From Chloroflexota bacterium (GTDB lineage: Bacteria > Chloroflexota > Anaerolineae > Anaerolineales > UBA11579): DNA of 63,928 nucleotides. The stretch covers positions 1-63,928 of the forward strand of contig JAMCZK010000004.1 in the NCBI GenBank assembly GCA_023485685.1. Direction: 5' to 3'. Below, piece after piece: positions 4,725 to 41,616 of this stretch; the first letter of the stretch is position 1; every line of letters starts with the position of its first letter. Position numbers and translations under genes: made by a program. The notes beneath the pieces are model-generated. The model searched no databases, was not told where the DNA came from, and was given only the letters and a program-made list of their open reading frames with translations.

Positions 4725-4744
4725 ATCGCCTCATACTCACCTAA

Positions 4745-4792
4745 TACGCAACACGCAATACGTAATACGTATTACGTATTGCGTGTTGCGTA
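4745..4792. repeat. Perfect 48-bp palindrome over the ssnA stop codon
   Basis: The 24 bases from 4745 are exactly the reverse complement of the next 24; the unit is built from TACGCAA, CACGCAA and TACGTAA words. The last codons of the aminohydrolase (YATRNT) and its TAA at 4772-4774 are inside it. A related but imperfect copy is at 16261-16310. It lies between two minus-strand genes and could also act as a hairpin between their transcripts. Confidence 0.9.
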
Positions 4793-16260: not shown

Positions 16261-16310
16261 TTACGCAATACGCAATACGTAATACGTGTTGCGTATTGCG
16301 TAATGCGTAA
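16261..16310. repeat. Imperfect palindrome related to 4745-4792
   Basis: Built of the same TACGCAA/TACGTAA words as the 48-bp palindrome at 4745, here with outer arms TTACGCA and TGCGTAA. It occupies almost the whole gap between two BMC-P genes. Confidence 0.85.
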
Positions 16311-32819: not shown

Positions 32820-33389
32820 TTGGACTCCGACCTCCTCGCCAGATGCAAATCAGGCGACCCGCAAGCAATCGAAGACCTGGTGCATGAGCACCAGGCCAAA
32901 ATTTATCGTTTGTGCTTGTCCATGCTGGATGATGCGGCAGACGCCGAGGACGCTACCCAGGAAAGCTTTATCGCCGCGCTGAAAGCCTTGAAGACCTACC
33001 GCGGCGACAGCGCATTCCATACCTGGCTGTTCTCCATAGCACTGAACGTTTGCCGTTCTTCGCTGCGCCAACGCAAGCGCAGGACGCAGCTTGGCACGAC
33101 CCTGGCCGACCCATCCATTGCGAGCGAAAGCTCCCCTACCCCTGAACAGCAAACTCTGCGCACGGAGGGTTCACAGGCATTGTGGGTGGCGCTCAACAAA
33201 TTGGATGAAAAACACCGGCTTCCGATCTTCCTGCGCTATTACCATGACCTGTCCACCGCCGAGATCGCTAAGGTGTTGCGTATCAATCAGGGAACAGTTC
33301 ATTCGCGCTTATCCATCGCAAGGACGCAGATTGCAGGTGAACTAAAACGCGCCCAACGCGCTGCGCGTACCTCGAGGCCAGCCAAATGA
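32820..33389 (+). CDS. ECF-type RNA polymerase sigma factor
   Basis: A 189-residue sigma-70 family ECF factor from a TTG at 32820. Region 2 (LVHEHQAKIYRLCLSMLDDAADAEDATQESFIAALKAL, then FHTWLFSIALNVCRSSLRQ) covers about residues 20-85, and region 4 (LNKLDEKHRLPIFLRYYHDLSTAEIAKVLRINQGTVHSRLSIAR) about 122-170. It overlaps the anti-sigma gene by ATGA, so the pair is co-translated. It may control the surface lipoprotein genes downstream. Confidence 0.92.
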   Translation: MDSDLLARCKSGDPQAIEDLVHEHQAKIYRLCLSMLDDAADAEDATQESFIAALKALKTYRGDSAFHTWLFSIALNVCRSSLRQRKRRTQLGTTLADPSIASESSPTPEQQTLRTEGSQALWVALNKLDEKHRLPIFLRYYHDLSTAEIAKVLRINQGTVHSRLSIARTQIAGELKRAQRAARTSRPAK

Positions 33390-34309
33390 GAGCGCTTAAC
33401 CATTCTGAGGCTCGACTGTTGATCGAGCAAGCAGCTGACAGTCAGCTGACCTCCACCGAACAGCGCTTGCTGGAAAGCCACCTGCAGGGCTGCGCCGAAT
33501 GCCGCGCCTACGCTGCCGAGTTTGCCGCCTTGGAAGCCGCATTCGGAAAGACGCTGCACGAGCGCTGGGGGCAGCCTAAGCTCTCCAAGGGAAGCGAAGC
33601 TAACCTGGTGAAGGCTCTGCAGGAAAAATTTCCGCCTGGACCCGGCAGCCCACCCAAACCTACAGGCGGATTCCCGGCTGTCCTCGCACTGCTGGGTATT
33701 GCCCTGATCGGCTTGCTCTCGCTGGGCCTATTTTGGATAGCTTCTGCAACCAGCAGAACATTGCCAACAGAGAAGCCAACGAAAACATCCACGGCAACCC
33801 CGACAACGACGGCGACACTAATTGCAGAAATCGTCGCTCTGCCAACTGATACTCCGACGCCAACTGTCTTAATGCTGTTTGCCATCCCGCAACAAAATGT
33901 GAATTGTCGCGAAGGCAATAGTTCTGCCTTCGAGATAGCGGATACTTTATTCGAAGGCGAAGAATACTCGCCCACCGGGCGCGGGTTCGATAACCAATGG
34001 GTGCGGTTCGTGGGCCCTGTGACGCAAGTGAATTGCTGGGTTTTCATCGACAACCTGGTTTTGGAAATCAACGAAGTGCCAACAAACATTGAAGGCGTTC
34101 CGGAGTTCCTCCTCCCATTCGTCAAATATCCACCCACGCCCACACCATCGCCCACGGTAACTTTCACCCCGGAGCGCGAGAGCACCGCCACTTTCACTCC
34201 CTTCGTGCCACAATGCAGCGATGGCATTGATAATGACCAGGATCGTCTAGTCGACTTAGCAGATAAGGAGTGCCGGAGCCCCAGCGACAACGACGAGGCC
34301 AAGCCATAA
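33386..34309 (+). CDS. Membrane anti-sigma factor with extracellular Cys-rich domain
   Basis: 307 residues. Residues 26-40 hold the zinc-binding ESHLQGCAECR (His32, Cys36, Cys39) of zf-HC2 anti-sigma factors. One membrane segment covers about 95-117. Outside follow a Thr/Pro-rich stalk, an SH3-like segment (QQNVNCREGNSSAFEIADTL, then WVRFVGPVTQVNCWVF), a second TP stalk and a terminal QCSDGIDNDQDRLVDL. The last two blocks recur in the 791-residue lipoprotein downstream, so sensor and surface protein share an external architecture. It probably binds the ECF factor and releases it on an envelope signal. Confidence 0.85.
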   Translation: MRALNHSEARLLIEQAADSQLTSTEQRLLESHLQGCAECRAYAAEFAALEAAFGKTLHERWGQPKLSKGSEANLVKALQEKFPPGPGSPPKPTGGFPAVLALLGIALIGLLSLGLFWIASATSRTLPTEKPTKTSTATPTTTATLIAEIVALPTDTPTPTVLMLFAIPQQNVNCREGNSSAFEIADTLFEGEEYSPTGRGFDNQWVRFVGPVTQVNCWVFIDNLVLEINEVPTNIEGVPEFLLPFVKYPPTPTPSPTVTFTPERESTATFTPFVPQCSDGIDNDQDRLVDLADKECRSPSDNDEAKP

Positions 34310-34418: not shown

Positions 34419-36794
34419 ATGAACAATCGAATAGCTAAGTTCGCCAACGCGCTATTCATCGTTGCCGTGCTGGCTGTAGCCTGCTCACCCGGCGGCGCCA
34501 CCGAGCCGGAAACAGCCAGTGGCAATCAGCCTGGAGAACCGGTCTACGCCCAACTGATCTTTGACTGCAACACTGGCGATGCCCTCCCCTCGGAAGGCAA
34601 TCTCATTGAGCCCGACGGGGGCTGCGACAGCTGGGAGATCAACCGTTACGAGCGCCCATTCAACGCGGAAAGCCAGGACACGTTCTTCCCGGACCTGGAC
34701 ATTCTTTCCGCCGAACTGGGCACTGATGGCACCTGGTTCTATGCTCGTTTATCCATTTTCAACGTAAACGAAGACAGTGGCTACCTGGATGGCACTTATG
34801 CTGTGGAACTCGACCTGGACCTCGACGGGCGCGGAGACGTACTCATCCTCGCTAACAAGCCCGGCCAGCAGGCCACGGAAGATTGGACTGTGGCCGGCGT
34901 CCAATTCTATGGTGACGGTAACAATGACGTGGGCAACGCGGTGCCGCTTTCCCCAGACCCACCCAGCCAATCGAATGGATATGACACGCTGGTCTTTGAT
35001 GAAGGTGAGGGAGAGGACCCAGGGTTGGCATGGATGCGGCTGCATCCTGGCAAACCCGCTGAACTTGAACTCGCCTTTAAGGCAAGCAGCATCTACTACT
35101 CTCCCAGCTTCAAATGGTGGGTATGGTCGGATCTGGGCGTGAATGACCCCACCGGCGCAGACTATCACGATACCTTCGATCACCCGGACGCAGGCGACCC
35201 CATCTTGGGGCAAACTTATTTTCCCTCCAAGGCCATCTTCGAATTGGACAACACCTGCGCGTCTATTTGGGGGGCTCAACCAGGGGATGACCCCGAATTG
35301 TGCGTGAATGACGATTCGGTGGAGCCGCCAGTCACCCTATCCACTCCCACTCAACCTACTGCGCCAGCCGAGACTATAACCTCAACGCCTGGTGATGAGA
35401 CCGCCACGTCCACTCCCACCGAACCGACGGTGACTCCATGTGTAGTCGCAGATCAGCAAGTGGGTGCAACCCCGGAAACATGTACCCCCACGCCAACTCC
35501 GACGAAAACCGAAACACCGACCTCAACACAGACACCGACTGATACTGCCACGCCAACTCAAACAGAAACACCGTGTGTATCATTCAATCCAAATCAGACG
35601 GCTGGCATTCCCCCCACCACCTGTACCCCCACTGCTACTCCAACCAACACATCGACGAGCACTTCCACACCAACAGCCACTCCGTGCGTACCATTTGCAG
35701 CTACAGCAAATATCCCAAACACTTGCACGCCAACCCCAACCCCGTCGGAGACCCCAACGACCACGCCAACAACTTGCTACAGTCTCTCCAACTATTTAGC
35801 CGCGGCGATTGTAGCTACATGCACTCCCTCACCCACTCCGACACCCAGCGCAACGTCCACTCAGTGCCCAGAGTTCAACCCCAATTCCACTGTCCCGCAA
35901 ACAGCGCCATGCACGCCAACGCCAACCGATTGTTATGCACCGGTCATTGCTGGCGCAGCCAACCAGATCGCAACCTGCACCCCCACTGCAACTCCATCAC
36001 CGACAGAGTGTGTAGTGCCCTACGCGTTTGCCGTGATCAACTGCACGCCTACACCCACCTTGACACCAAGCGCCACGCCAACTTTGTGCACTAGTCTCAG
36101 CAACAATACGACGGCTCCTTTGCCGGTACCATGCACGCCAACGCCCACTGACTGCGTAGCGATTAACTTCGCAGCGGTGGCTGTATCTAACTGCACGCCA
36201 ACACCCACGCCCACCTTGTGTGTAGTAGGAACAATCATCGGGTACGATGAAGCGGGCGCCCCCATCTACGCCTACGAGGAGTGCACGCCGACGCCGACCC
36301 CAACGGAATGCTTCGGCTATGCGAACGAAAAGTGCACCCCTACACCCGAAATTGCAGCGATGATGGTCTTCCCCGAGCAAGACACGAATTGCCGCCGCTC
36401 CACAGATTCCAATTCGCAAATTATCGACACTCTCAAGAAAAGCGTTGGCTACATCCCTCTCGGTCGCACGCCGGATAACCTCTTCATGCTGTTCCGCGGC
36501 CCGGTGACCAACCAGCGATGCTGGGCGCCCACTTTCCTGTTCTTTGTCCCATTTGGTCCTCTGAACCAGGTGCCTGGTGAGGAACTGCCGGACATCAGTT
36601 ACCCAACCCCGACGCCTATCCCAACGAATGTGCCCAGGCAGGCAACGTCTACTTCGGCTAGCCAGTCCCAGCAGCCAACTGCAACCCCGTCAACACCTCA
36701 GTGCAGTGATGGCAGAGATAACGATGGGGACGGCGCCATTGACGGTCGCGATAAGCAATGCTCCAGCGGCTCAGATAATAACGAATCGAATTAA
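34419..36794 (+). CDS. Large lipoprotein with Cys-loop/TPTPT repeat stalk
   Basis: 791 residues from the ATG at 34419, preceded by GAGGAGG. Lipobox LAVAC with Cys22. Residues about 35-285 form a beta-rich domain (VELDLDLDGRGDVLILANKP, LELAFKASSIYY) with the look of a carbohydrate- or DOMON-type binding domain. Residues about 320-650 contain some eleven units of the form Cys, 8-20 mixed residues, Cys, then TPTPT. Then come an SH3-like block (DTNCRRSTDSNSQIIDTL, MLFRGPVTNQRCW) and QCSDGRDNDGDGAIDG, both shared with the anti-sigma protein upstream. I infer a cell-surface protein on a rigid, disulfide-punctuated stalk; the ligand is unknown. Confidence 0.85.
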   Translation: MNNRIAKFANALFIVAVLAVACSPGGATEPETASGNQPGEPVYAQLIFDCNTGDALPSEGNLIEPDGGCDSWEINRYERPFNAESQDTFFPDLDILSAELGTDGTWFYARLSIFNVNEDSGYLDGTYAVELDLDLDGRGDVLILANKPGQQATEDWTVAGVQFYGDGNNDVGNAVPLSPDPPSQSNGYDTLVFDEGEGEDPGLAWMRLHPGKPAELELAFKASSIYYSPSFKWWVWSDLGVNDPTGADYHDTFDHPDAGDPILGQTYFPSKAIFELDNTCASIWGAQPGDDPELCVNDDSVEPPVTLSTPTQPTAPAETITSTPGDETATSTPTEPTVTPCVVADQQVGATPETCTPTPTPTKTETPTSTQTPTDTATPTQTETPCVSFNPNQTAGIPPTTCTPTATPTNTSTSTSTPTATPCVPFAATANIPNTCTPTPTPSETPTTTPTTCYSLSNYLAAAIVATCTPSPTPTPSATSTQCPEFNPNSTVPQTAPCTPTPTDCYAPVIAGAANQIATCTPTATPSPTECVVPYAFAVINCTPTPTLTPSATPTLCTSLSNNTTAPLPVPCTPTPTDCVAINFAAVAVSNCTPTPTPTLCVVGTIIGYDEAGAPIYAYEECTPTPTPTECFGYANEKCTPTPEIAAMMVFPEQDTNCRRSTDSNSQIIDTLKKSVGYIPLGRTPDNLFMLFRGPVTNQRCWAPTFLFFVPFGPLNQVPGEELPDISYPTPTPIPTNVPRQATSTSASQSQQPTATPSTPQCSDGRDNDGDGAIDGRDKQCSSGSDNNESN

Positions 36795-40499: not shown

Positions 40500-41616
40500 A
40501 TGAAATTCCACCTATCTCCGGTTGTTGTTAATATAAGCATTCTACTTATCCTGGTGTTAGCAACGCTTCTGCGCCTGATCAATGCGGAGAGCGATCCATT
40601 TTGGGTTGACGAGAGAGGGCATCTCGAAGTAGCGCTGTCTGCTGACATATCGGACTTGTTCACCGGCGTCCGCGAGCATGCGGCCGCGGCCCCCCTGGAC
40701 TATCTGCTACTAAGGTTTTACCAACGCCTAACTGGAGCCGAAACACGCTTTGAGTTAAGGCTGCCCTACGTTTTCTATGGCTTGCTAAGTGTGTATCTGA
40801 TCTATCAATTGGGACGGCTAATCTTTAATCCCATTATTGGCCTGATCGGCGCATATACAATGAGCATTTCTGCCTTTCATGTCTATTATTCTCAAGAAGT
40901 ACGGTTCTATTCCCTTTCTGCGTTGATTGGACTATTGAGCACGTTACTCTTTCTAACCGCTTGGAAAAGGCCTTCTTGGCTCAGATGGGTTCTATGGGGA
41001 TTCGTTTGCCTCCTTGGCCTATACACTCACTATTTTTTGGCCCTTGTTTTTTTCGTTCAATTGGGCTGGTTGCTGGCAAATGAATTCGGGAAACGACCCG
41101 ACCCCAAATCTAAACTTTTCAAAAGCCTTTTTTTGCCTTGTGTAGTTTTTACAATCTCATTATTGGCCTTTTTGCCATGGTTCCTGTGGGCCGCGAATGC
41201 GCCTCTAAATAATTTTCCTGAACTAGGTATTTCATTCGGCCAGGCATTGTTCATTTTTATCTCCGCCCTCGGACCGTCTCTGGCATTCCTGGTATTCAGT
41301 CCATTCGGTGTATTTTTCGAAAAAAGAAAGTTGGCTTCTGCTGAGTTTGTCATTCGCCCCTTTCCTCGGTGTTTATATTGCCGACAACTTAGCTGGGTAT
41401 TTCTTCAACGCCCGCCAGGTAATTTTTGCATTGCCGTTCTCGATCCTCCTGAGTTCGGCTAGCCTGATTTATTTTGCTTCAGCGGTTTCATCGGCTGCAG
41501 AGAAGCCAGACAAAGCACATTTGAAACCTTTGCTTGTAGCTACCGGCTTATTACTTATATTAGTGTTCACCTGGGCTAATAGCGTTCAAATTTGGGATTA
41601 TTTCACCCAAGCATAG
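40500..41616 (+). pseudogene. GT39-like membrane glycosyltransferase, frameshifted
   Basis: The N-terminal 280 residues are a GT-C mannosyltransferase-type protein: DPFWVDERGHLEVAL with the acidic loop-1 motif, APLDYLLLRFY, about eight membrane segments and ISAFHVYYSQEVRFYSL. At the six-A run 41320-41325 the frame is lost: the first frame ends at 41462, while the next frame continues LLLSLSFAPFLGVYIADNLAGYFFNARQVIFALPF to a stop at 41614. One A fewer would restore a single 371-residue product. Either a real mutation or a sequencing error in the homopolymer is possible. GC content is lower than in the neighbours, suggesting transfer. Confidence 0.75.

Follow-up and report, generated by a model that had tools for sequence, protein, structure and literature searches.

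An array of eleven Cys-loop units on Thr/Pro stalks in a Chloroflexota lipoprotein encoded beside an ECF sigma/anti-sigma pair

Thr/Pro linkers are generally regarded as featureless spacers. The lipoprotein described here, encoded in a stretch of 63,928 nucleotides from a Chloroflexota genome (the window), has a Thr/Pro-rich region that is divided by regularly placed pairs of cysteines, and its other parts and neighbours can each be compared with a described system. The two genes that adjoin it are a pair of the type formed by ZAS-type (zf-HC2) anti-sigma factors and ECF sigma factors; unlike in such pairs, a C-terminal SH3/acid module is common to the anti-sigma factor and the lipoprotein. 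For the N-terminal domain of the lipoprotein, the best whole-domain structural matches are CBM9/DOMON-like sandwiches (the CBM9 of Thermotoga Xyn10A, the gamma subunit of ethylbenzene dehydrogenase and the C-terminal region of glucodextranase, Z 7.8-10), from which it differs in sequence, with an identity of about 10% or less and no Pfam match. The fold predicted 3' of the array is alike to bacterial SH3 domains (SH3_3, SH3b). The 30-residue tail at the very end contains the pattern CSDGxDNDGDGxxDxxDxxCxxxxDNDE of NF033662 (acid_disulf_rpt), as a single occurrence that scores 26.9 bits and stays below the cut-off of 41; this family describes the tail, not the array. For the array itself, no description was found in the part of the literature that we covered. 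The array pattern is real, is kept in a sister species and is rare elsewhere.

Architecture of the lipoprotein and its array

The start codon of the lipoprotein (ATG) is immediately preceded by an AGGAGG-like Shine-Dalgarno sequence, and the protein has the signal peptide and lipobox of a bacterial lipoprotein (LAVA-C22, and LAAA-C22 in the ortholog, by sequence inspection), which bears out its initial annotation as exported (Table 1). The host MAG, of which the window is contig 1, belongs to the Chloroflexota and has 1.71 Mb, at 76% completeness. In the layout of the protein, the array connects the N-terminal beta-sandwich with the C-terminal SH3 domain and the acidic tail.

Table 1. Features of the lipoprotein locus, with positions in the window
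Feature	Position	Strand	Basis
ECF-type sigma factor, cassette gene 1	32820..33389	+	Pfam Sigma70_r2 1.6e-19, Sigma70_r4_2 2.2e-12
Anti-sigma factor: zf-HC2, membrane span, Thr/Pro linkers, SH3-like domain, acidic two-Cys tail	33386..34309	+	PF13490
Lipoprotein, 791 aa	34419..36794	+	ortholog in G183
Signal peptide and lipobox up to Cys22 (LAVA-C)	34419..34484	+	sequence; LAAAC at the same site in the ortholog
N-terminal domain, residues 39-305, predicted CBM9/DOMON-like beta-sandwich, invariant Cys pair 280/295	34533..35333	+	AlphaFold, structural matches, homologs
11-unit Cys-loop-Cys array on Thr/Pro stalks, residues 341-639	35439..36335	+	shuffle test; 8-unit array of the sister species
Unit 10, C601-C622, CVVGTIIGYDEAGAPIYAYEEC, predicted beta-hairpin, sole confidently modelled unit	36219..36284	+	AlphaFold
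Predicted bacterial SH3-like domain	36348..36620	+	pLDDT mostly >90, Foldseek; SH3_3 matches in relatives
Acidic two-Cys tail CSDGRDNDGDGAIDGRDKQCSSGSDNNESN	36702..36791	+	NF033662 below cut-off; common to the anti-sigma factor

The array consists of exactly 11 C-x(7-20)-C-TP units with no remainder; the initial annotation, which had counted about eleven units between residues 320 and 650, was correct within about 20 residues. The loops are, in order, 13, 15, 12, 14, 14, 14, 10, 14, 12, 20 and 7 residues long (8 of the 11 have 12-15 residues), have a high content of Ala, Val, Pro, Thr and Asn, carry almost no charge, and the stalks between them have 5-30 residues, 76% of which are Thr or Pro. 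All 22 cysteines of the array are used in units and alternate strictly. When residues 341-639 were shuffled 20,000 times at constant composition, the mean number of units was 0.22 and the maximum was 4, versus the 11 ordered units observed, and the proposed framework of Cys, loop, Cys and Thr/Pro repeats thus stands. This bears on the simplest alternative, namely that the region is a normal Thr/Pro linker of low complexity in which cysteines occur by chance: such linkers are frequent in the class, and C-TPTPT matches, mostly single ones, occur in 224 of 396 genomes, but the shuffles, the frame kept in the sister species and the rarity of tandem units elsewhere (see below) make it the least probable of all readings considered here.

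A tandem DNA repeat was sought across the array and none was found: the longest similar pair of DNA segments among the units is 35 nucleotides at 77% identity, and no two units are near-identical. The four Thr codons are evenly used (22/20/19/19). The absence of DNA repetition and the even Thr codons indicate that the regularity is kept at the protein level and has left no trace of a recent duplication; it is the frame of Cys, Pro and Thr, more than the loop sequence, on which constraint acts. The further idea that the loops are diversified by recombination is not supported, as near-identical DNA units and a tandem array are both absent and the loop differences between species have accumulated over a saturated synonymous distance.

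The array in the sister species and in the class

The repeat pattern, for which relatives were to be searched, is present in the ortholog of the sister species G183, which is a 712-codon open frame with 8 array units in the same frame. The N-domains of the two proteins are 71% identical and their SH3 domains 69%; in these folded domains dN is 0.22-0.27 and dS is saturated. The folded domains are under purifying selection while the loops turn over: in a comparison of two species with one genome each, most loop sequences are replaced, the only loop plainly common to both is VVPYAFAVIN/IAPYPFAVIN, and a few others are weakly similar. Judged by eye, G183 loops such as CFYYNQAGQFEDC and CYVPDNTGTFITC may resemble turn-centred hairpins.

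Variable loops on a constant frame could be displayed binding or antigen-like elements that are functionally diversified on their scaffold, and the loops do vary both within and between species. Against this, near-identical units and tandem DNA repeats are absent, and the conservation of the VVPYAFAVIN/IAPYPFAVIN loop is the opposite of diversification; moreover, as the two species are far apart (dS saturated), ordinary drift explains the loop change. We therefore consider display quite unlikely.

The window's own genome (G000) and G183, both array-bearing, are sisters on a tree of KBL and TPR proteins with a support of 0.987, which is best explained by one origin of the array in their ancestor or by an older state that was lost elsewhere. 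Two more distant N-domain homologs (G117, G124) have a few short-loop Cys pairs in Thr/Pro-rich or acid-rich tails, possibly a simpler form of the same design. A contig scan with the lipoprotein returned a single distant relative, from the MAG Chloroflexi bacterium CFX15; this is the G124 protein, of the same family-level group.

A strict DNA pattern of tandem units, searched for in 396 genomes of the class, gave five matches in the window's gene and one or two in each of nine other genomes; these counts are lower bounds, as the pattern needs TGC as first Cys codon and short loops, misses one locus described below (L109) and was run on a sample that does not contain G183. Four of the other loci were read and three encode Thr/Pro-rich proteins (L150, L148, L149). 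L150 has three real C-loop-C-TP units in a row, fewer than the lipoprotein and in an unrelated host protein. L109 (575-3034), also unrelated, has about three units whose loops are longer (about 28 residues), are near-copies of each other (CEPGLVAQTG...) and stand on TPTPTPT stalks; these loops plausibly stem from recent duplication. Given that L150 and L109 carry their Cys-pair arrays in unrelated proteins, patterning of this kind has probably had at least two further independent origins, with fewer units. The other two Thr/Pro-rich proteins, at L148:1098-2291 and L149:1104-2171, are LysM proteins whose linkers repeat the sequence TPTPAVVCV, that is, have regularly spaced single cysteines. A search of the class with the array protein itself found the window's own gene and 13 others, all weak (E from 1e-5 to 7e-7), that look like generic Thr/Pro matches.

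Cysteine pairing and the folded domains

Disulfides within the array units are plausible, judging from several indirect signs. Besides the lipid-bearing cysteine, the mature lipoprotein has 30 cysteines, an even number. In the N-domain, C280 and C295 are invariant in all 34 homologs and C50 and C69 co-occur in the same six of them, which is the behaviour expected of disulfides. DsbA-like proteins are encoded in all 11 genomes of the genus and VKOR in 10 of the 11; the only one with no VKOR match is the window's own MAG, which is 76% complete. AlphaFold models the array, from an alignment of 13 sequences, with block pLDDT values of 27-46 except for unit 10, which is predicted as a hairpin between its two cysteines (its strands span model residues 297-304 and 310-316, and block means of pLDDT reach 88). 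The other 10 of the 11 loops have no confident AlphaFold model, and the initial description of the stalk as rigid is not supported, since confidence within the array is limited to this one loop.

Cysteines could also pair between molecules and cross-link the lipoprotein into an envelope net that resembles keratin or a sheath. The even spread of 22 cysteines over a flexible Thr/Pro-rich region would suit such a net, as would the presence of export oxidation genes in the genus; however, the loops keep strictly to a short length (mostly 10-15 residues) and unit 10 is modelled as a hairpin, both of which point to pairing within units, and cysteines are again found as pairs in independent proteins. 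A net is thus unlikely, if the most credible of the alternatives considered here.

Of 201 genomes examined in the order, 99 have matches to the whole lipoprotein; most of these matches are to the N-domain, for which the AlphaFold model has a pLDDT of 90. Neither the N-domain nor the array matches a Pfam or NCBIfam family, nothing convincing was found when PDB sequences were searched with a profile of this domain, and none of its Foldseek matches, taken by themselves, was significant (E not below 0.05). In VIA-align the best matches along the entire model are CBM9/DOMON-like chains: glucodextranase (Z 10.0), Sas6 (9.4), the ethylbenzene dehydrogenase gamma subunit (9.1), a putative carbohydrate-binding protein (8.2) and the CBM9 of Thermotoga Xyn10A (7.8); those with Z 10.0, 9.1, 8.2 and 7.8, all with a Foldseek E not below 0.05, cover model residues 1-249. 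Antibody domains reach a score of about 7 and align to a part of the model only, versus the whole domain for the CBM9/DOMON-like proteins. For the predicted sandwich, these matches are a lead to a possible sugar or small ligand rather than an assignment to a family.

For the domain behind the array, the Foldseek matches listed are mostly SH3 or SH3-containing proteins (9ovi, TMt 0.75; 2krs, 0.67), none of which reaches an E of 0.001, and the predicted fold is that of an SH3 domain. The lipoprotein itself matches no Pfam SH3 model; 4 of 18 relatives match SH3_3 at E up to 0.01. Its last 150 or so residues, comprising the SH3-like domain and the 30-residue acidic tail, are homologous to the C-terminus of the anti-sigma factor. 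A full-length mixed alignment (A3) was left out, as its C-terminal pieces are probably misplaced. The SH3-like C-terminal module is also found on right-handed beta-helix-like lipoproteins at two loci of the genus (L044:4008-6314 and L043:3777-5585), one of which terminates in CTPQQIQNQQCP.

The sigma/anti-sigma/lipoprotein cassette and a proposed role of the array

The sigma factor has regions 2 and 4, and the adjoining anti-sigma gene encodes a zf-HC2 domain above cut-off (PF13490, 23.7 versus 22.2 bits) with the motif HLQGCAEC, a ZAS-type H-x3-C-x2-C; the two thus qualify as an ECF sigma/zf-HC2 anti-sigma pair. Downstream of the lipoprotein are genes for a TPR protein, a LytR-CpsA-Psr protein and SurE. 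The order sigma, anti-sigma, lipoprotein, TPR, LytR, SurE is found beside KBL in six genomes (G000, G183, G086, G048, G094, G172), and a GT2 (DPM1-like) gene follows SurE wherever the examined stretch extends so far. The cassette is therefore present in 6 of the 11 genomes of the genus and is missing as a block in the other five (G102, G008, G060, G035 and G022, at loci L180, L181, L182, L183 and L184), which have the conserved neighbours KBL and TPR and lack all three cassette genes between them. Its presence is patchy across the genus tree. In four of the six cassettes (G086, G048, G094, G172) the lipoprotein has a different N-terminal part and no array, indicating that the array is not required for the cassette.

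We favour the reading, at a probability of roughly 0.55, that the lipoprotein belongs to an ECF system which senses the envelope, and that its Thr/Pro tether is shortened by disulfides. It would be the lipid-anchored outer part of the sigma/anti-sigma system, in which a Thr/Pro tether of about 300 residues joins a membrane-near CBM9/DOMON-like domain to the SH3 domain with its acidic tail. After export, each of the eleven Cys pairs would shut one small local loop; roughly half of the tether would then no longer contribute to its extended length, and the result would be a compact, protease-resistant spacer through the cell wall. Selection would keep the frame of Cys pairs and Thr/Pro stalks, most loops would be drifting filler, and units would slowly be gained and lost. 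Because lipoprotein and anti-sigma factor have the SH3/acid module in common, the two may bind one and the same ligand in the wall, or one another, and the lipoprotein would in this way report the state of the envelope to the sigma factor. We infer pairing within units, the spacer role and the signalling link, the last of these from gene order and the common SH3/acid module.

An extension of this reading, which we regard as improbable, is that the array acts as a molecular ruler set by redox state and that the anti-sigma factor, which has the same module, reads the resulting shift of the SH3 domain. Eleven disulfides within units would withhold about 145 residues from the extended path, and their reduction or opening would roughly double the reach of the tether, from about 45 nm to 100 nm (lengths estimated from residue counts for a chain extended in the manner of polyproline).

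If the pairs are disulfides, the array would be a simple and reusable route to a compact extracellular tether. It is a Cys-patterned Thr/Pro linker whose pattern is kept while its loop sequences turn over, and similar three-unit versions exist in proteins of this class that are unrelated to the lipoprotein. As the lipoprotein ectodomain of the cassette is swapped between species, the envelope-sensing role becomes testable.

Glycosylation of the array, raised as a possibility in the initial annotation, is only suggested, by nearby GT2 and PMT_2 genes. The GT2 gene is conserved in synteny; the adjoining PMT_2 gene was found only in the window's own genome among those examined and is missing at the corresponding place in G183, G086 and G172. 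This PMT_2-type mannosyltransferase-like gene (window 40500-41616, + strand) looks split, with one frame to 41462 and then another from 41308 to 41616, which could be due to an error in the sequencing or to decay of the gene. Elsewhere in the window, a TACGTAT/TACGTAA-like 7-mer forms two short tandem arrays, at 4742-4792 and 16262-16310.
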